Below are positions 1-51,898 of a stretch of 64,000 nucleotides of DNA, one piece after another (position 1 is the stretch's first letter; each line of letters opens with the position of its first letter). The stretch is from positions 1 through 64,000 of the forward strand of contig JAFNAR010000009.1 of the NCBI GenBank assembly GCA_017860255.1, given 5' to 3'. The notes under the pieces are model-generated. The model was given only the letters and a program-made list of their open reading frames with translations, was not told the origin of the DNA and did no database searches. This DNA is from Bacteroidota bacterium. GTDB lineage: Bacteria; Bacteroidota; Bacteroidia; Bacteroidales; P3. Position numbers and translations under genes: made by a program.

Positions 1-117
1 TTTTATCAATAAACTAGTTTTAGAAATAAAAAAATAAACTGTAAATTTGAATTAGTAATAACCTAAAAAGTGTAAACCTATTTCAGGAAACGACATAATC
101 AAAGTATAAATCTCATT

Positions 118-216
118 TAATGGCATTATAATCTCAGTATAATGCCATTAAACTTATGATATAATGGCATTATAGTTGTAGTATAATGCCATTAAACCGA
201 CAATATAATGCCATTA
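118..216. repeat. Phased palindrome array 1 (TAATGSCATTA x5)
   Basis: Five copies of the 11-bp palindrome TAATG(G/C)CATTA have centres at 123, 145, 167, 189 and 211, exactly 22 bp apart. The 11-bp linkers are unrelated in their middles but mostly end in TA. The right flank (TAAATTTAAAC then ACAAGGATTAG, 220-239) matches the flank of array 2 with an internal deletion. The left flank, read outward, resembles the ATGAAATTTTTACTTGAT-type flank of array 3. No gene is visible within 1-397 apart from this array and the terminator of the next gene. Confidence 0.9.
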
Positions 217-342
217 TACTAAATTTAAACAAGGATTAGTTAGATTAAAAGCTTATATAAAGAGATAATAATAAGATATATATCTACAAAAAAGAAGTAT
301 AATTTTATTGATAGCTTTTTAGATAAATTTTAGGCAATAAAA

Positions 343-4894: not shown

Positions 4895-5515
4895 TTAGTT
4901 TTTAGGCAATTCCTCAAAAGTATTATCTGAGTAGAATACAATCAATCTTTTAATATGCTTAGGTTTATTTTCAACAACTGGAGTTATTGTAGCATTTAAA
5001 GATTCTTTTGTATTATTTTCTTCAGTAACAATGACTTTTTCTTTAAAAATATCATTAAAACTTGGATCAATTGTTTTGATTTCTGGAAGCTTTTCATCAT
5101 CATTATTAATCAAAACATCCTTTTCTTTATATTTCTTCTCCAATAGTTCAATTTTTCTTTCTAAATCTCCAATCTTATTTAGGTCATGTTTTGAAGAAAT
5201 ATCTTCTTGAAAATCATCAAAAAGAGAATCAGAAAATCCCTTTTTATTGTTTTCTGGAAGCTCTGAGAATGCAAAATTTGCTTCTTTAGATATTTTTTCG
5301 TCAGATTTTGAAAAGAGAGAGCCTTTACCCAATATCAACCAATTTGAATCAACTTCTTTAAATCGATTTAAAATTTTTGTAACAATATCCAAGGATGGAT
5401 TATTCCTTCCTGATAGAATATGAGAAATAGAAGATCTTTGAACTCCGATTTCATCAGCAAATTGTGTAGGATTTAATCCTAAAGATTTCATCAATAAAAC
5501 TATTCTTTCTTGCAT
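4895..5515 (-). CDS. XRE-family transcriptional regulator
   Basis: An N-terminal helix-turn-helix of the Cro/CI type (LGLNPTQFADEIGVQRSSISHILSGRNNPS) occupies roughly the first 60 residues after the ATG at 5515. It is followed by SNWLILGKG, a motif common in Bacteroidota phage-repressor-like regulators, and then a long charged, low-complexity tail. An upstream in-frame GTG at 5545 would add ten residues but lies inside one of the operator-like dyads, so I prefer the ATG. Seven copies of a TTACAwTTGTAA dyad lie upstream, two within 40 bp of the start, which suggests autoregulation (inference). The regulated pathway is unknown. Confidence 0.85.
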   Translation of the reverse strand: MQERIVLLMKSLGLNPTQFADEIGVQRSSISHILSGRNNPSLDIVTKILNRFKEVDSNWLILGKGSLFSKSDEKISKEANFAFSELPENNKKGFSDSLFDDFQEDISSKHDLNKIGDLERKIELLEKKYKEKDVLINNDDEKLPEIKTIDPSFNDIFKEKVIVTEENNTKESLNATITPVVENKPKHIKRLIVFYSDNTFEELPKN

Positions 5516-19297: not shown

Positions 19298-19362
19298 GCT
19301 AATCCTTGTATAAATTTATTTTTATAGGGTTTTGCTTTGTTTAAATCAAGTTTAAATTTACT
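19298..19362 (+). repeat. Flank of palindrome array 2
   Basis: GCTAATCCTTGT (19298-19309), then TTTATTTTTATAGGGTTTT and TTTAAATCAAGTTT (19340-19353), lead into the array. The reverse complement recurs at 29744-29799 next to the HU remnant, and in shortened form at 220-239 beside array 1. I judge the 19298/29799 copies about four-fifths identical by eye. Confidence 0.75.
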
Positions 19363-19364
19363 AA

Positions 19365-19460
19365 GGTCGTACTTTAATAGTGGTAACGTACGACCTTAAT
19401 CAATTAAGGTACGACCATAACTATGGTAACGTACGACCTTATTGAAACTATGGTCGTACC
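19365..19460. repeat. Phased palindrome array 2 (GGTCGTACC x5)
   Basis: Five copies of GGTCGTACC or its reverse complement/variants (centres 19369, 19391, 19412, 19434, 19456; spacing 22, 21, 22, 22). Most are extended to AAGGTCGTACCTT-like or ATGGTCGTACCAT dyads. The array lies between divergent genes in a gap of almost 700 bp. The right flank begins ATATGAAATTTTTA, the same as beside array 3. Confidence 0.9.
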
Positions 19461-19462
19461 AT

Positions 19463-19792
19463 ATGAAATTTTTAAAAGGTTTAGACAAATTAAAACCTTG
19501 TTATTTTGAGTTTTAACCTTATATAATTTTTCTTTTCCTTCTTTAAATTAAATTTTATCGCTATTTCTATTCTTTTTTGATGTTGAATTTTAAATATTCT
19601 GTTCTTATTGTCCAAGATTTTCTTTTTAGGTCTTTTTTTTTAGTCAATAAATTATCTTTTTATGTTAATAAGTAGATTTTTTTACACTATTATTCTTCTC
19701 ACAAAAAAGCTTTATATCAATATTTTAAACTTTAATTGAGTTAAAAATAAATTAATTTGGAAATTATTTAGTGCGTAAAACATAAGTTTTTG
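19463..19792. other. AT-rich intergenic stretch, nothing recognised
   Basis: The stretch begins with the flank of array 2 (TATGAAATTTTTA). After that it is T-rich sequence with no ORF, RNA or repeat that I can support. Confidence 0.5.
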
Positions 19793-21215: not shown

Positions 21216-22073
21216 CTATTTATAATCTACTATATCGAAATTATCAAATGGCTCTGTATTGGATTGTATCTTTTTATCTTTTAAATCTATTCCATAAAAA
21301 TAAATATCAATTCCAGAAGATTTAATCCAAACGTATTTATTCATTAAGAAATTAAATAAATATTTAGATGAGTTTTGAGCATTGAGTTTTGCAATAGAAT
21401 AAGCATCTTCTTCTTTAATTTTTTCATAATCATAAGAAGCAATGTAATCCTTACCAACCAATCTAATTTCTCCTTCAAAGAAATCTTCAACAGATTCATC
21501 ATTAAAAAAAACTAAACGTGAATTGGTGTCAGCTTCATTATAAATAAGCCAAGTGTTAAATCTCACTCCATTAATCAGCTTATGGAAAACCTCTTTTTCA
21601 TTTTGATAATAAACTAAAGAGTCAGTATAAGAATACTCTTCAATTTCCATTTGAGCAATATTAAGAGTATGATGAGTTTCGTCAATATTCTTACTGTTGA
21701 GTTCATTAATATCTTTTACCTCAATTACCTTAAATCCCAAAGAAGATAAGATTAGAGAAAGATTTTGAGAGTATTCTCTTAATAGAGTAGTATCTTTTAT
21801 TTTGGAGTATAAAGGAGCATATTTTTCTAATAATTCTGCTTGAACATCTTGTTCCAAATCATAGAAATTAGGCATCTTTTCAATACTTTCATTTCTATAA
21901 GTTATTGATGGATTAATGAACAAATAAACAACATCTTGCCTTAAAGAATCCTTTTGTTTATAAAGAAAATCTTTTGCAAAGTTTTGAGAATTTGCATCCA
22001 TAAAGCAAAATAATGTAATTAAGCCCAAAAATGCTATTTTAAAATAGCTCTCCTTGAATAAAGTCTTCATCAT
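21216..22073 (-). CDS. Secreted protein of unknown function
   Basis: About 286 residues from ATG 22073 (22070 is also possible). A signal-type hydrophobic segment ends in NSQ. The remainder is acidic, with no motif I recognise. It contains repeated Asp/Glu-Ser-Tyr stretches and an internal segment suggestive of an envelope protein (SPSITYRNESIEKMPNFYDLE is similar in style only). The reading frame overlaps the 3' end of the topoisomerase gene by about 35 nt, so it is co-transcribed from upstream. Confidence 0.6.
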   Translation of the reverse strand: MMKTLFKESYFKIAFLGLITLFCFMDANSQNFAKDFLYKQKDSLRQDVVYLFINPSITYRNESIEKMPNFYDLEQDVQAELLEKYAPLYSKIKDTTLLREYSQNLSLILSSLGFKVIEVKDINELNSKNIDETHHTLNIAQMEIEEYSYTDSLVYYQNEKEVFHKLINGVRFNTWLIYNEADTNSRLVFFNDESVEDFFEGEIRLVGKDYIASYDYEKIKEEDAYSIAKLNAQNSSKYLFNFLMNKYVWIKSSGIDIYFYGIDLKDKKIQSNTEPFDNFDIVDYK

Positions 22074-29504: not shown

Positions 29505-29732
29505 TTAAGCCTTTTTCCCATATTTCTTTTCAGCCTTATAGAATTTAAGACCTATCAGTTCTTTTCTCAACTTCCTTTCTGATTTAAAAGCAATCTTTTT
29601 CACCTTTACCCTAGTTGGAATACATTCCTCTTCAGTATCAAATCCTTCTGAGGTTAACAAAAGACTGAATGTTCCAATCCCATCTAATTTGACATTATAG
29701 CCTAATTTCAACTTTGTTATAATAATATTACC
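29505..29732 (-). pseudogene. HU-family DNA-binding protein, 5'-truncated
   Basis: The readable part (LKLGYNVKLDGIGTFSLLLTSEGF, then ECIPTRVKVKKIAFKSERKLRKEL) is the C-terminal half of the Bacteroidota HU-like/histone-like family. The normal N-terminal 50-60 residues are missing. The frame is open only back to a TAA just upstream of 29732 and has no ATG (first candidate TTG 29711). Directly upstream lies a copy of the palindrome-array flank (29744-29799), which appears to have replaced the 5' end of the gene. I read it as a broken gene, possibly cut by that element. Confidence 0.7.
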
Positions 29733-29743
29733 TTATGAAAATT

Positions 29744-29874: not shown

Positions 29875-29882
29875 TAATTTTG
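29875..29882 (+). promoter_or_regulatory. -7 box TAATTTTG ahead of cobalamin riboswitch 1
   Basis: TAATTTTGCC lies 10 nt upstream of the first conserved aptamer base, so transcription would begin at the aptamer. Confidence 0.6.
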
Positions 29883-29891
29883 CCTCGTTAT

Positions 29892-30041
29892 TGGTTCTTT
29901 TTGGATTAAAAGGGAATTAGGTGTGAATCCTAAACAGTCCCGCTGCTGTAAACTCTATGTTAAACAAGTGTTTCTTCTTTAGCCACTGAATTTTTAGATT
30001 TGGGAAGGCGAAATGCTTGGGAGTAAGTCAGAAGACCTGCC
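29892..30041 (+). ncRNA. Cobalamin riboswitch 1
   Basis: It carries the conserved adenosylcobalamin aptamer segments in order: GGTTC, AAAAGGGAATTAGGTG, AATCCTAAACAGTCCCGC, TGCTGTAA, the GCCACTG block, GGGAAGGC, and AGTCAGAAGACCTGCC. A hairpin with loop CGAGGA (about 30063-30078) follows and can pair with TCCT (29928-29931) as a kissing loop (inference). It controls the DUF4465/BtuH-like gene starting at 30208. Confidence 0.93.
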
Positions 30042-30207
30042 AATTATTTATTAAGTTTTTGAGCTTTCGAGGAAAAGGCTTAAGACAACTTTAAGATTTT
30101 ATTGGATTTATCCTCTTAATTTTATCTTTGATTTTGTCTTTATTTTAGTCTTGCTTGATGCTCTAATTTATTAGTTGTTTATTCACATAAATAAAATAAA
30201 AAAGAGT

Positions 30208-33165: not shown

Positions 33166-33173
33166 TATCTTTG
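33166..33173 (+). promoter_or_regulatory. -7 box TATCTTTG ahead of cobalamin riboswitch 2
   Basis: TATCTTTG lies 13 nt upstream of the first conserved aptamer bases. Confidence 0.6.
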
Positions 33174-33185
33174 TACCGTGTAATT

Positions 33186-33336
33186 GGTTCTTATTTTTAG
33201 ATTAAAAGGGAATTAGGTGTAAATCCTAAACAGTCCCGCTGCTGTAAACTCTATTGTTTAATAAGTGTTTTTTTCTTTTGCCACTGAATTTTATTTGGGA
33301 AGGCAAAACACTTAGGAGTAAGTCAGAAGACCTGCC
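33186..33336 (+). ncRNA. Cobalamin riboswitch 2
   Basis: Nearly the same aptamer as the copy at 29892: GGTTC, AAAAGGGAATTAGGTG, AATCCTAAACAGTCCCGC, TGCTGTAA, GCCACTGAATTT, GGGAAGGC, AGTCAGAAGACCTGCC. A small hairpin (CTCT, loop CGAGGAA, AGAG; 33363-33377) ends 11 nt before the btuB ATG. Its AGGA can pair with TCCT (33224-33227). This places the L13 kissing-loop hairpin at the initiation region, implying translational control of btuB. Confidence 0.94.
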
Positions 33337-33387
33337 AATAATTTTATTTACTTTTTAGAATGCTCTCGAGGAAAGAGTCTAAAAATT

Positions 33388-35397
33388 ATGATTAGAACAT
33401 TATTATCAGGTTTATTACTATTTGTATTTTCGTTGCCAATTGTTTCTTTGGCTCAAGAAAAGGATTCCATTAAAAGCATAATGCTTAATGAGATCGAGAT
33501 TATTGATTCCTTTGCAAAAGACTCTCTTTCCAAACAATCTTCCTCCTCTTTAGACTCAACAGTTATTAAGAAAATCCCTTTTATTTCTGTTGGCGAAATG
33601 GCAAAGTATATTGCTGGAGTCAATGTTAAGGATTATGGCGGTGTTGGAGGTTTAAAGACAATTTCTGTTAGAGGTTTGGGCTCAGGACACAGTGCTGTGG
33701 TTTATGACGGAGTAAGTGTTACTGATTTTCAAACAGGACAAGTTGATTTGGGTAAGTTTTCTTCTGGAAACATTAAAGCAATTAATCTTTTTAATGGTCA
33801 ATCCTTCTCAATGCTTCAAACTGCAAGATCCTTAGCATTTGCAAATGTTTTCTTAATTGAAACTCAAAAACCATTATTTGACAGCTTGCAAAGAATAAAA
33901 GCATCAATTAAAACTTCTTATGGCTCTTTTAATTATGGTAATTTGGGTTTGAATCTGGCTTATAAGGTAAATAATATATGGACTTCATGGGTTGATTTGG
34001 ATATTCAAAACACAAAGGGAAATTATCCTTATTTGCTTCGTTACGGATATAGCGAAAATGACTCTACATCAAAGGAAATTAGAGAAAATTCTGATTATTT
34101 TGGATTTAGAGGTGAATGGAATGCCTTTGGAAGCTTTAATTCTAAAACTGATTTAAAACTTAAAGCCTATTATTTCTATTCTGAAAGAGGTTTACCAATG
34201 AGTACTACTCTCTACTATTTGAATTCTTCACAAAGACTTTGGGATGAAAACTTCTTTTTGCAAAGTATATTCACTCATAACTTCAATAAACGACTTTCCT
34301 ATCGTAATCATGCAAAGGCACTCTACTCTTTCTCCCATTTTCTTGACCCAAAAACTTTAAATATTTCAGGTTACCAAAGCGATAAATATTATCAGAGAGA
34401 ATATTATCTGAATAATGTTGCTTCATATTTGCTTGTGAAAGATTTGACTTTAGCTCTTAGCAACGATATTTTTCTAAATAATCTAAATGCTCCTTCTTCT
34501 TTCTACTCAAAAGCAAACAGAACTTCTTCAATAACTGCTTTAAGTTTTTTGTTTGATAATTCAAAACTTCTAATCAATGGTAATATTTTACATAATTATG
34601 TTTTGGATTATGAAGATAAGGAAAAGACTCAAAAAACAAAAAGTCACTTCTCTCCTTTTCTTTCAATAGGTTACACATGGAAAGAATGCTTTACATTGAG
34701 TGCTTTTTATAAGGATGTATTTCGAATGCCTTCCTTCAATGATTTATATTTTAACAGGGTAAGCTTTTCTTCCCTTGAGCCAGAAAAGGCTAAGCAATGG
34801 AACATTCATACAGAATTTTCTAAGAATTTTGGTTCTTACAAATCAAGTTTTATTTCTATTTCTTTAGATGCCTATTATAATAATGTAGAAGATAAAATTA
34901 TTGCTGTTCCTCAACGAAATTTATTTGTTTGGTCAATAATAAATTATGGTAGAGTTGAAATAAAAGGATTGGATATTCAATCATCTTTTAGAACTTACCT
35001 TCCTTTTTCTTTGGATTTGAATATTAGAGCAACCTATTCTTATCAAAAAGCTACTGATGTTTCAGATTCAAAGGCAATAACCTATAATAATCAAATTCCT
35101 TATACTCCTATTCATTCTGGTTCATTGTTTTTGAATCTTACTCACCCTATAATGGACCTTGCATACACTATAAATTTTGTTGGTAAGCGATATGCTCTTG
35201 CTGAAAACATTGATAGAAATATGCTAAAGCCATATCAAGATCACTCAATAACACTTTCTAAGGATTTCTTTTTGAAAAAAAATAAGATAAATATAGGCCT
35301 ATCATGTCTTAATTTGTTTGGAGTGCAATATGAGGTAGTTCGCAACTATCCAATGCCCCAACGACAATTTCGTATTAATTTAAAAATGGATTTATAA
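33388..35397 (+). CDS. btuB: TonB-dependent cobalamin receptor
   Basis: A 669-residue outer-membrane receptor for energy-dependent B12 import. Signal peptide (about 1-22, LAQ). Plug domain (about 60-165; ISVGEMAKYIAGVNVKDYGG, ISVRGLGSGHSAVVYDGVS). Then a 22-strand-type barrel ending RQFRINLKMDL. No SusC-style carboxypeptidase-like N-terminal domain is present, which fits BtuB rather than a glycan receptor. Assignment as BtuB comes from the cobalamin riboswitch directly upstream and the BtuG-like gene directly downstream. Its TAA overlaps the next ATG by one base. Confidence 0.92.
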   Translation: MIRTLLSGLLLFVFSLPIVSLAQEKDSIKSIMLNEIEIIDSFAKDSLSKQSSSSLDSTVIKKIPFISVGEMAKYIAGVNVKDYGGVGGLKTISVRGLGSGHSAVVYDGVSVTDFQTGQVDLGKFSSGNIKAINLFNGQSFSMLQTARSLAFANVFLIETQKPLFDSLQRIKASIKTSYGSFNYGNLGLNLAYKVNNIWTSWVDLDIQNTKGNYPYLLRYGYSENDSTSKEIRENSDYFGFRGEWNAFGSFNSKTDLKLKAYYFYSERGLPMSTTLYYLNSSQRLWDENFFLQSIFTHNFNKRLSYRNHAKALYSFSHFLDPKTLNISGYQSDKYYQREYYLNNVASYLLVKDLTLALSNDIFLNNLNAPSSFYSKANRTSSITALSFLFDNSKLLINGNILHNYVLDYEDKEKTQKTKSHFSPFLSIGYTWKECFTLSAFYKDVFRMPSFNDLYFNRVSFSSLEPEKAKQWNIHTEFSKNFGSYKSSFISISLDAYYNNVEDKIIAVPQRNLFVWSIINYGRVEIKGLDIQSSFRTYLPFSLDLNIRATYSYQKATDVSDSKAITYNNQIPYTPIHSGSLFLNLTHPIMDLAYTINFVGKRYALAENIDRNMLKPYQDHSITLSKDFFLKKNKINIGLSCLNLFGVQYEVVRNYPMPQRQFRINLKMDL

Positions 35398-47625: not shown

Positions 47626-49587
<1,962 letters not shown>

Positions 49588-49609: not shown

Positions 49610-49786
49610 CAAAAAAGATTTGACACTATTTATCATTTAAAACAGATATTCCTATTAGAAAACAAATCAAAGTTATAAGAAAAGAATTAATGAAGAAAAT
49701 TGTAGTATAGTAGATTTTTATTTTAAGGTCGAATATGATTATTTATATAAGATTCTTGGCAAAATAAACCTTATTTAAGTATAAAT

Positions 49787-49947
49787 ATATCAAGTAAAAT
49801 TCAGTAAGGTGGCACCATACTTATAGTAACATGACACCTTATTAAAGTATGGTGCCACCATACTATTGTTATGGTCGTACCATAATACCACTAAGGTACG
49901 ACCATAACTACATTAAGGTCGTATGTTATGAAATTTTTACTTGATAT
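49787..49947. repeat. Inverted flanks around palindrome array 4
   Basis: Left flank ATATCAAGTAAAATTCA (49787-49803) and right flank TGAAATTTTTACTTGATAT (49929-49947) are near-perfect inverted repeats that bracket the array. The right-flank start (TATGAAATTTTTA) is identical to that of array 2. Confidence 0.8.
49808..49925. repeat. Phased palindrome array 4 (mixed GGTGSCACC and GGTCGTACC, x6)
   Basis: Centres lie at 49812, 49834, 49855, 49877, 49899 and 49921 (spacing 22, 21, 22, 22, 22). The first three units are GGTGGCACC-type (the second degenerate, CATGACACC). The last three are GGTCGTACC-type, the same palindrome as array 2. The array lies in the gap between gyrB and the 7TM-HD gene. Other sequence in 49579-50062 shows nothing I recognise. 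Confidence 0.9.
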
Positions 49948-50062
49948 AAATAAAATAAATCCTGATTTACATACACTTAATCAAGGTAAAAATAAAAATA
50001 TAGCTTGATTAATTTATACTAATCAGCAAAATGGGGAAATAAACAATAAGAAAAGTAATTTT

Positions 50063-51898
50063 CTACTTTAAAACAGGATATTGGATTCTTGTATGATAAA
50101 TTGCTTGAAGCTTTTGCTTAAGAACTTGTTTGATTATAGTTAAATCTCTAAAGGTAATGTTAGAATTGGAGAATTGATCATTATTGATTTGGTCATCAAT
50201 TATTCCATCAACCAAATTACTTATTGCTTTTTCAGAATGGTCAGTCAAACTTCTTGAAGCAGCTTCAACACTATCAACCATCATAACAACAGCAGTTTCT
50301 CTTGAAAATGGCTTAGGTCCTTTGTAGGTGAACATATTTTCATCAATTGGAAGTTCTGGATGTTCTAACTTCTGCTTATTATAGAAATATTTAGTTTTGG
50401 TTGAACCATGATGTGTGCGAATAAAATCAATAATTGGTTCAGGAAGTTTATATTTGTGAGCAAGTTTAACCCCATCAACAACATGTGAAGTTATAATTTG
50501 AGCAGATTCTTCATTTGATGTTTCATTGTGAGGATTAAATCCAGTATGTTGATTTTCTATAAAGAAAAGAGGCTTAAATGTTTTACCTATATCGTGATGT
50601 AAAGCACCAACTCTAACTAAAAGAGCATTACCACCTATTTGATGAATTAAATCTTCTGCAAGATTAGCCACTTGAACAGAGTGTTGAAAAGTACCAGGAG
50701 CCTTTACAGACAATTCTCTTAAAATCTTATTATTAGTGTCAGAATATTCCAACAAAGACAATTCACTTACGTAACCAAATAATTTTTCAAATATAAAAAT
50801 TAAAGGAAATGCCAAAAGAGTCATACCTGCATTCATTGCAAAATAGGCAAAACGATAAGGATTTATTTTTGAAAGGTCAGCATCCTGAATAAGAGTTAGA
50901 GCCAAGTAAACTATAGTATATGTAAAAAAGACAAAAACGCTTGTTTTAATAAAGTCAGATCTTCTTTCAAGGTGTTCCATACTTATTATTACCATCATCC
51001 CAACCATAAGTTGATAGAAAACAAATTCAAAACTATTTGGAACAGAAAATCCAATTATTATTATATTTACCAAGAAAACATATAAAGATGAACGGGAGTC
51101 AAAAAAGGTTCTAATAAGAATCGGCGTTAAACAAAGAGGAGCAACATATATATAACGTAAATTGACATCAACAATAATTGCCGTTATGCCAACCATCATA
51201 ATAATTACAGTAAGAATTAATATTATTTTTCTGTTGTCTTCATAAAGTTCAGAAATAATATATTTGAAGAAAAATAGCATTGACAAGAGTGCTATAGCAA
51301 CCAAAATAAACTGTCCTAAAATTTGTTTGTAAATTATTCTATGAGCAGTATACTTTTCATCATAAGCCTTTCTATAGATTGAAAGTGCTTCATATTTAGT
51401 TTGACTTACCTCCTCTCCTTTGGCAATAATTTGGTCTCCTTTAGCTATAGATTCTTTAATGGTTGAAATATTATTTAATTTAATATCCAAAGCCTCTTGT
51501 GTTTTCTCTTTATTGAATTTTAAGGGGGCTGTTATTTCAGATAATCTAACATCAAAAGGAACAGAATCTTTAAGAACAACAATTGAATAACTTAAAGGCA
51601 AACCTTCAACTTCTTTAGGAATATAAATACTGTCGCCTTGAACAATATCAAAATAAAGTTTCTTATTATTAATTATTGCTGACTTTTCTTCCTTTAACTC
51701 TTCGTTAGACTTGTTAATAACAATATCAATTGGAGAAATTAAATTGTCATACTCCCAAAAAGAACCTTGCTGAAAATCATATTTAAAAGTCTGATTAGAA
51801 GGAAATATCCAAACAATTAAAGCACTTGCAATCAATGCCATCATTGATTTACCAATATTTGCTAAAATTTTCCTTTTTCTTGCTTTATTTGTTGCCAT
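50063..51898 (-). CDS. 7TM-HD family membrane phosphodiesterase (PgpH-like)
   Basis: A 611-residue protein with a first membrane helix (about 14-30), a periplasmic segment carrying FDVRLSEITAPLKFN and a KGDQIIAKGEEVS motif (7TMR-HDED-type extracellular domain), then about seven membrane helices (200-370) and a cytoplasmic HD domain (GTFQHSVQVANLAEDL; GALHHDIGKTFKPLFF; NTMVHSRE-like TSHVVDGVKLA; IRTHHGSTKTKYF). Homologues such as PgpH hydrolyse c-di-AMP. Length is slightly below typical. Its ATG lies inside the 3' end of the ABC ATPase gene (14-nt overlap), so it is co-transcribed. Confidence 0.88.
   Translation of the reverse strand: MATNKARKRKILANIGKSMMALIASALIVWIFPSNQTFKYDFQQGSFWEYDNLISPIDIVINKSNEELKEEKSAIINNKKLYFDIVQGDSIYIPKEVEGLPLSYSIVVLKDSVPFDVRLSEITAPLKFNKEKTQEALDIKLNNISTIKESIAKGDQIIAKGEEVSQTKYEALSIYRKAYDEKYTAHRIIYKQILGQFILVAIALLSMLFFFKYIISELYEDNRKIILILTVIIMMVGITAIIVDVNLRYIYVAPLCLTPILIRTFFDSRSSLYVFLVNIIIIGFSVPNSFEFVFYQLMVGMMVIISMEHLERRSDFIKTSVFVFFTYTIVYLALTLIQDADLSKINPYRFAYFAMNAGMTLLAFPLIFIFEKLFGYVSELSLLEYSDTNNKILRELSVKAPGTFQHSVQVANLAEDLIHQIGGNALLVRVGALHHDIGKTFKPLFFIENQHTGFNPHNETSNEESAQIITSHVVDGVKLAHKYKLPEPIIDFIRTHHGSTKTKYFYNKQKLEHPELPIDENMFTYKGPKPFSRETAVVMMVDSVEAASRSLTDHSEKAISNLVDGIIDDQINNDQFSNSNITFRDLTIIKQVLKQKLQAIYHTRIQYPVLK

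Follow-up and report, generated by a model that had tools for sequence, protein, structure and literature searches.

Array 4 of the window, by which we mean the whole 64,000-nt stretch of DNA that was analysed, passes from one kind of palindromic unit to another without losing its phase, and the same order of kinds stands at the same locus in two other species. Arrays of this family differ between orthologous loci by units and blocks in register, and exchange among arrays is well supported. We lean towards a reading in which the arrays are double-stranded binding platforms whose content turns over by exchange while the pitch is kept.

The window is contig C69 of the draft genome G000 (2.58 Mb, 72 contigs), and the relatives of its gyrB are Bacteroidales known from metagenome assemblies. 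Two types of unit are distinguished: S, with a GGTGSCACC core, and C, with a GGTCGTACC core or its reverse complement GGTACGACC. Array 4 spans 49805–49928 and holds six 15-bp dyad units, three of S type and then three of C type, capped by an exact 14-bp inverted pair. In window coordinates the features are:

116..218, no strand: array 1, five TATAATGSCATTATA-kind units at 22 bp
19362..19463, no strand: array 2 (locus B), five C-type units; S units are present in its G006 and G010 orthologues
47626..49578, minus strand: gyrB, its start facing array 4
49786..49799, minus strand: left arm core (TTTTACTTGATATA on the minus strand), identical to the right arm core but inverted
49805..49819, no strand: unit 1, S type (TAAGGTGGCACCATA), carrying GGTGGCACC
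49827..49841, no strand: unit 2, degenerate S type (TAACATGACACCTTA), carrying CATGACACC
49848..49862, no strand: unit 3, S type (TATGGTGCCACCATA), carrying GGTGCCACC
49863..49869, no strand: junction spacer ctattgt, separating the S block from the C block
49870..49884, no strand: unit 4, C type (TATGGTCGTACCATA)
49892..49906, no strand: unit 5, C type (TAAGGTACGACCATA)
49914..49928, no strand: unit 6, C type, one side degenerate (TAAGGTCGTATGTTA), carrying GGTCGTATG
49935..49948, plus strand: right arm core (TTTTACTTGATATA)
50063..51898, minus strand: gene with 7TM-7TMR_HD and HD domains, its end facing array 4

An earlier note on this DNA had described array 4 as a chimera of three S and three C units in unbroken 21–22 bp phase, with a C block identical to array 2. 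The phase is as described: units start at 49805, 49827, 49848, 49870, 49892 and 49914, at intervals of 22, 21, 22, 22 and 22 bp and with spacers of 7, 6, 7, 7 and 7 bp, and nothing interrupts it at the S/C junction. The order of types also stands, with four of the six units matching the two motifs exactly and units 2 and 6 degenerate. Unit 2 is classed as S by descent because its orthologue in the related draft genome G002 has a GCC centre (our counting script scores it as 'other'), and the G002 counterpart of unit 6 is intact. Identity with array 2 extends to units 4 and 5 (GGTCGTACC and GGTACGACC), which are present there letter for letter; unit 6 is degenerate on one side.

The window has 11 occurrences of the motif GGTNNNACC where 3.63 are expected, a count that none of 100 shuffles reached. 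When palindromes spaced at 21/22 bp were scored without regard to sequence, array 4 plus its arms reached 10.5, and the best of 20 second-order Markov copies of the window reached 5.5. A stricter palindrome scan of the window found array 1 alone and missed array 4; the S/C arrays escaped the stricter scans. Array 4 with its arms has no match in plasmid and phage records, and between gyrB and the 7TM-HD gene there is no match to a Bacteroidetes-type promoter pattern. Elsewhere in the window, two cobalamin riboswitches (Rfam RF00174) lie on the plus strand at 29875–30058 and 33168–33353, 3.3 kb apart.

The pitch is not peculiar to array 4. The loci and contigs examined contain 209 near-consensus units; of the 150 distances from one unit to the next that do not exceed 120 bp, 146 are 21 or 22 bp, the others being 43 bp twice and 16 bp twice. 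In the window and three whole contigs, all 31 next-site distances of ATGSCAT within the same range are 22 or 44 bp, and all 19 for GGTNNNACC are 21, 22, 43, 44 or 64 bp. These three counts have no spacing rule built in; the phased-palindrome scans and unit-pair patterns require a pitch of 21–22 bp, or near it, by design. Since the rule-free counts agree for several motifs, differing palindromes share one pitch. Junctions between S and C keep it as well, at 22 bp fifteen times and at 21 bp seven times. The 159 spacers are of 7 bp (116) or 6 bp (43), and their length tracks the unit ends that face them: 44 of 45 TAT/TAT pairs have 7 bp between them, and 25 of 39 TAA/TAA pairs have 6 bp.

To follow up chimerism beyond one array, the earlier note had proposed a catalogue of palindrome types and a search for mosaics, which we carried as far as our patterns reach. 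Mosaics are frequent: 19 of the 41 S/C arrays catalogued in four genomes of one genus are mixed, against 9 pure S and 13 pure C arrays. The genomes are all drafts, and each orthologue counts as a separate array unless we say otherwise. Arrays were located by way of intact GGTNNNACC pairs or near-consensus units, an approach that misses all-degenerate arrays; a first catalogue included chains of weak units, from which an intact-core rule retained 38, and three arrays on syntenic contigs were added by hand. One G002 array split by Ns makes up two rows, and three further arrays that surfaced through the arm pattern stand outside the 41. Adjacent intact S/C units occur in 4 of 61 genomes, all of one genus, and the reversed-pattern control gave no match.

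S and C units form strong blocks with few intermediates. The catalogue holds 107 C units, 79 S units and 14 with other centres, that is, intermediates, in a total of 200. With these 14 excluded and orthologues counted apart, type switches in 22 of 145 adjacent pairs against 41.6 expected, and none of 5000 within-array shuffles gave so few. The deficit persists with one array per locus (12 switches in 73 pairs, 20.4 expected, p = 0.0005) and in G000 alone (5 in 42, 10.8 expected, p = 0.0008). The point-mutation continuum without block structure, which the earlier note had named as the observation that would speak against exchange, is thus not what the catalogue contains. The base flanking a unit follows type too: inside blocks it is C beside S units in 82 of 92 cases and A beside C units in 91 of 140, and at S/C junctions it follows type more weakly (14 of 22 and 13 of 22). 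Facing the arms, the rule holds for S (24 of 33) and fails for C (11 of 42). Thirteen mixed arrays have arms that can be oriented, those with unclear arms being excluded, and in 11 of them the S units share one arm side; by locus, in our own grouping, seven of nine agree, one is split (G002:C34 for, G006:C30 against) and one is against (G010:C10).

Matching flanks on both sides identify orthologues of array 4 in G002 (C12:85826) and G006 (C42:16558). Their types read SSSSCCC and SSCCC, and that of the window reads S-degenerate-S-CCC; the S-then-C order is therefore common to three species. All five spacers of array 4 recur in the G002 array, which has one extra unit, and the change visible in array 4 itself is an in-register loss or gain of units. 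The gyrB gap of a further relative, G010, contains no S/C array, and weaker 21–22 bp repeats of another kind are found there. Because the order is present in two other species and S keeps to one arm side in most oriented arrays, array 4 may be not a fresh chimera but an old ground plan, inherited or copied whole.

At other loci the type itself differs between species. At locus H, the S arrays of G000 and G010 are the same apart from two differences in 79 bp (our count on the alignment), and the flank matches of the two genomes are 84.3 and 85.7% identical. A rough binomial calculation gives P = 0.0003 for at most two differences at 15% divergence, and this conservation of the array points to selection. 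Between the same, intact arms G002 carries CCCCC, and G002 is about 95% identical to G000 in long syntenic blocks. At locus N (G000:C63), G000 has CCCC where G002 and G006 have degenerate S arrays. These fall below the scan threshold and were assigned by visual inspection of their GGC/GCC centres. Of the two arms at this locus, the right one is conserved and the left one divergent. By parsimony over three species each, a C array took the place of an S array at locus H in the sister species, G002, and at locus N in G000. At locus B the arrays read SSSC plus one other in G010, SCCCC in G006, CCCCC in G000 and C with one other centre in G002, and at locus K three S units of G006 are absent from G002.

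A different pattern is seen at G006:C26, which has the flanks of G002:C25:40213 (SSSSS) and an array with a 162-bp exact match to G002:C25:51974; the next best match among 792 non-orthologous pairs is 53 bp. The two G002 arrays start 11.8 kb apart. This case (loci E and F) could be a misassembly, with the donor locus just off the G006 contig. Misassembly is also possible at G000:C67 and G000:C21, where one flank alone matches a G002 array with the same arms. Over six orthologous loci of G000 and G002, array identity is 52–96%, a measure that counts gap columns as differences and is lowered by unit number, and the pooled flanks are 87–92% identical.

At window positions 29729–29740, G000 lacks about 460 bp that G002, G006 and G010 have. 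The loss took part of a minus-strand gene and almost the whole of an S array, of which ACCTTATGAAAATTAAACTTGATTT remains. We rejected the apparent empty site at 29729/29730, which is a deletion in the window's genome that also cut the neighbouring gene.

The modular exchange between arrays suggested in the earlier note is thus supported for the family, by the blocks, the in-register differences and the two S-to-C replacements, and is not supported as a recent event in array 4. This comparison favours neither of the routes that the note named, recombination and template switching.

Further palindrome kinds share the pitch. A scan of syntenic contigs gave TATAATGSCATTATA, AATCATGSCATGATT and AACAATGCCATTGTT, the last mixed with AACAATGCGGTTGTT, and CGAAATGSCATTTCG appears among the matches to ATGSCATN{14,15}ATGSCAT. 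That pattern has 126 matches in G000 and is present in 10 of the 11 genomes of the genus, the reversed control giving none in all 11. A wider pattern, run on 190 genomes of the family, has 13–203 matches in 10 of the 11 genus members. Outside the genus it matches in most of g2 (1–41 in six genomes), in G207 (112) and in G184 (16), and elsewhere mostly near the control; genomes of other genera above their controls are G082 (28 against 1), G179 (20 against 3), G102 (18 against 2) and G200 (10 against 0). The 112 matches of G207, of genus g5, are TGSCA-centred unit pairs, and the other 13 surveyed members of that genus have 0–10, which suggests recent spread or acquisition.

Several observations concern these other kinds. 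Array 1 lies near the start of its contig, and at least several arrays of the TATAATGSCATTATA or CATGSCATG kind are no more than about 250 bases from a contig end, among the matches listed on C1, C2, C11, C16, C20, C21 and both ends of C22. In G006:C39, GCCGT repeats 21 bp apart (21738–21823) and GGTATATACC repeats on a 23-bp pitch (33907–33962) stand where G002 has another palindrome kind; both were seen by eye and are below threshold. In L084, a contig of a relative, the stretch 5055–5342 holds fourteen AACTCCCCGAGTTA-kind repeats of 21 bp; inspection by eye also shows CTTGATT repeats, similarly spaced, upstream of gyrB.

Array 4 belongs to a large set of intergenic arrays whose palindromic units keep a 21–22 bp pitch, with AT-rich arms in inverted orientation as caps. 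In the model that we favour, a dimeric DNA-binding protein would sit on each unit, along one face of the helix; no candidate for this protein was found. Units would be gained and lost in register within an array by homologous exchange, and blocks or whole arrays would be replaced through non-allelic conversion between loci that share arms. The pitch would be kept because exchange is in register and because the geometry is selected, although in-register slippage alone could keep it within an array. What we observe is the units, their pitch and blocks, the length changes in register, the change of type at fixed loci and the order that array 4 shares with two other species; the bound protein, the conversion route and the selection on pitch are inferred. 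Some of the material calls for caution: the genomes are drafts, arrays of the other kinds are often at contig ends, the G006 case at loci E and F is possibly misassembled, and the two full replacements depend on three species each, with degenerate, eye-classed S arrays at locus N.

A serious but rather unlikely alternative is that the arrays are non-autonomous, MITE-like mobile elements with an internal minisatellite, in which the chimera arose once and was copied along. Such elements would explain why the flanking arms are common to copies at different loci, why the strict arm pattern occurs in 4 of the genus's 11 genomes, namely those with S/C unit pairs, and why S tends to one arm side; the patchy spread, with G207 far above its congeners, also fits. 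The arms of a single element are less easily accommodated. They share a consensus, yet over 20 loci an element's own arms match at 14.45 of 21 positions and foreign arms at 14.89 of 21, so that the left and right arms of one element match no better than arms taken from different elements. The few syntenic regions that we compared contain no empty site, the absence at 29729/29730 being the gene-cutting deletion, and no Y1 transposase was found in any of the four genomes, in a search that covered the Y1 family alone. A foldback element was rejected on the same mismatch of arms within elements.

It is unlikely that the loci are fixed docking sites among which palindrome cassettes are exchanged, each kind read by its own DNA-binding paralogue and C spreading by biased conversion. 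The three replacements with an assignable direction all run from S to C, at H and N by parsimony and more weakly at B. If this were true, the arrays would amount to a recoding, chromatin-like system of marks in a bacterium.

We regard it as quite improbable that the units function as hairpins in single-stranded DNA or RNA, whether REP-like, as mRNA stabilisers or as terminators. The element folds much more strongly than its shuffles (z = −9.93 as DNA and −9.26 as RNA), but this follows from palindromy and does not decide between hairpin and binding. Arm position 3 of the units pairs above chance (130 against 98.3 expected), and identical arms are in excess (79 of 200 units against 63.0, with 3 of 2000 shuffles as high); hairpins predict this covariation, this excess and the folding as well. 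Positions 4 and 5, however, vary without compensation (131 paired against 135.3 expected, and 159 against 158.0). The one terminator-like match, where shuffles have a mean of 0.0, is at unit 3 on the plus strand, opposite to the two flanking genes, which are both on the minus strand. Over 51 scanned rows, which cover all palindrome kinds with orthologues counted apart, 11 are in convergent, 15 in divergent and 19 in tandem settings, with 5 of unknown setting and 1 inside an ORF; gaps of at least 200 bp on four contigs comprise 7 convergent, 19 divergent and 27 tandem. The convergent share is somewhat above this background, yet arrays occur in all gene orientations, and a terminator or promoter role argued from gene orientation was rejected, with no clear bias among the 51 rows. 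Rfam gave no match at the window arrays or at three array loci. The uncompensated positions 4 and 5 and the unmatched flanking arms make us favour a double-stranded protein-binding platform over a hairpin or foldback. Together with the spread over all gene settings they speak, on balance, for a protein that recognises double-stranded half-sites and for a function independent of promoters and terminators.

Mutational drift within a single array, with S and C as point-mutation neighbours, is very improbable and largely refuted: the two centres differ by two bases and the 14 intermediates do exist, but neither the block structure nor the substitution of C arrays for S arrays at orthologous loci is expected from it, nor a flanking base that follows type within blocks and more weakly at junctions. 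That the chimera is an assembly artefact is scarcely credible, since arrays of other kinds are often near contig ends but array 4 is well inside its contig and the S-then-C order recurs at the same locus in the drafts G002 and G006, with flanks matching on both sides.

If the arrays are indeed binding platforms with exchanged content, they would form a large layer of chromosome organisation in this Bacteroidales group, and a set of DNA-binding proteins with matching specificities is predicted. Orthologous loci that change their units or the kind of their array while pitch and position stay constant also offer a natural experiment on the way in which families of repeats convert each other.

In the literature, the best matches listed in open-access searches (20 of 270, 15 of 23 and 15 of 27, in part) include no recognised description of these arrays, their absence being unproven. 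Three known systems are comparable. The TAACTGA repeat sets of Beggiatoaceae, Cyanobacteria and some Bacteroidetes are likewise abundant, intergenic and patchy in distribution (PMC4679880). They are heptamer direct repeats, in the Orange Guaymas genome mostly just upstream of start codons, and not palindromes on a 22-bp pitch.

REP and BIME elements contain GTAG and CGTC palindromes (PMC3733652), for which RepRanger gives criteria (PMC12306157), and hybrid dimers of two GTAG families are described in S. maltophilia (PMC3733652, PMC12306157). Like these, our arrays are extragenic, palindromic, short and of high copy number, and comprise several sequence families; of the 51 rows, the one inside an ORF is weak and atypical of the family, and a few reach into the ends of mechanically called ORFs, by at most 58 bp. 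Unlike REP and BIME elements, the arrays have no regular tag: within 6 bp of a unit CGTC occurs in 0 of 200 cases and GTAG in 19 of 200, and the commonest tetranucleotide abutting units is ATAG (33 of 400 unit ends). They also differ in the strict 21–22 bp pitch in short arrays, in the capping arms, and in that no RAYT gene (Y1 transposase, PF01797) was found in the four genomes, with a control search positive in 5 of 14 named genomes; a RAYT/REP origin was rejected on this absence.

The BrickBuilt MITE of Porphyromonas gingivalis is described as an intergenic minisatellite with a 23-nt unit of about two helical turns between a leader and a tail, present in 19 copies in one strain, with whole units gained or lost at conserved loci between strains (PMC4596501). 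The S/C arrays resemble it in being intergenic and flanked, with a unit of about two turns, and in gaining and losing whole units at conserved loci. BrickBuilt units are described as spacerless direct repeats of one kind with IS-like terminal inverted repeats (PMC4596501), whereas here all 159 spacers separate palindromes of several kinds, arrays change kind at fixed loci, and the consensus arms do not match within the element (14.45 against 14.89 of 21), although array 4 has its exact 14-bp pair and element ends are undefined. Among the few orthologous loci compared there was no clean empty site. BrickBuilt is the nearest system in architecture and REP/BIME the nearest in unit type. Since the arrays share some features of each while some of the tested defining ones fail, we rate them as a variant of intergenic repeat arrays.
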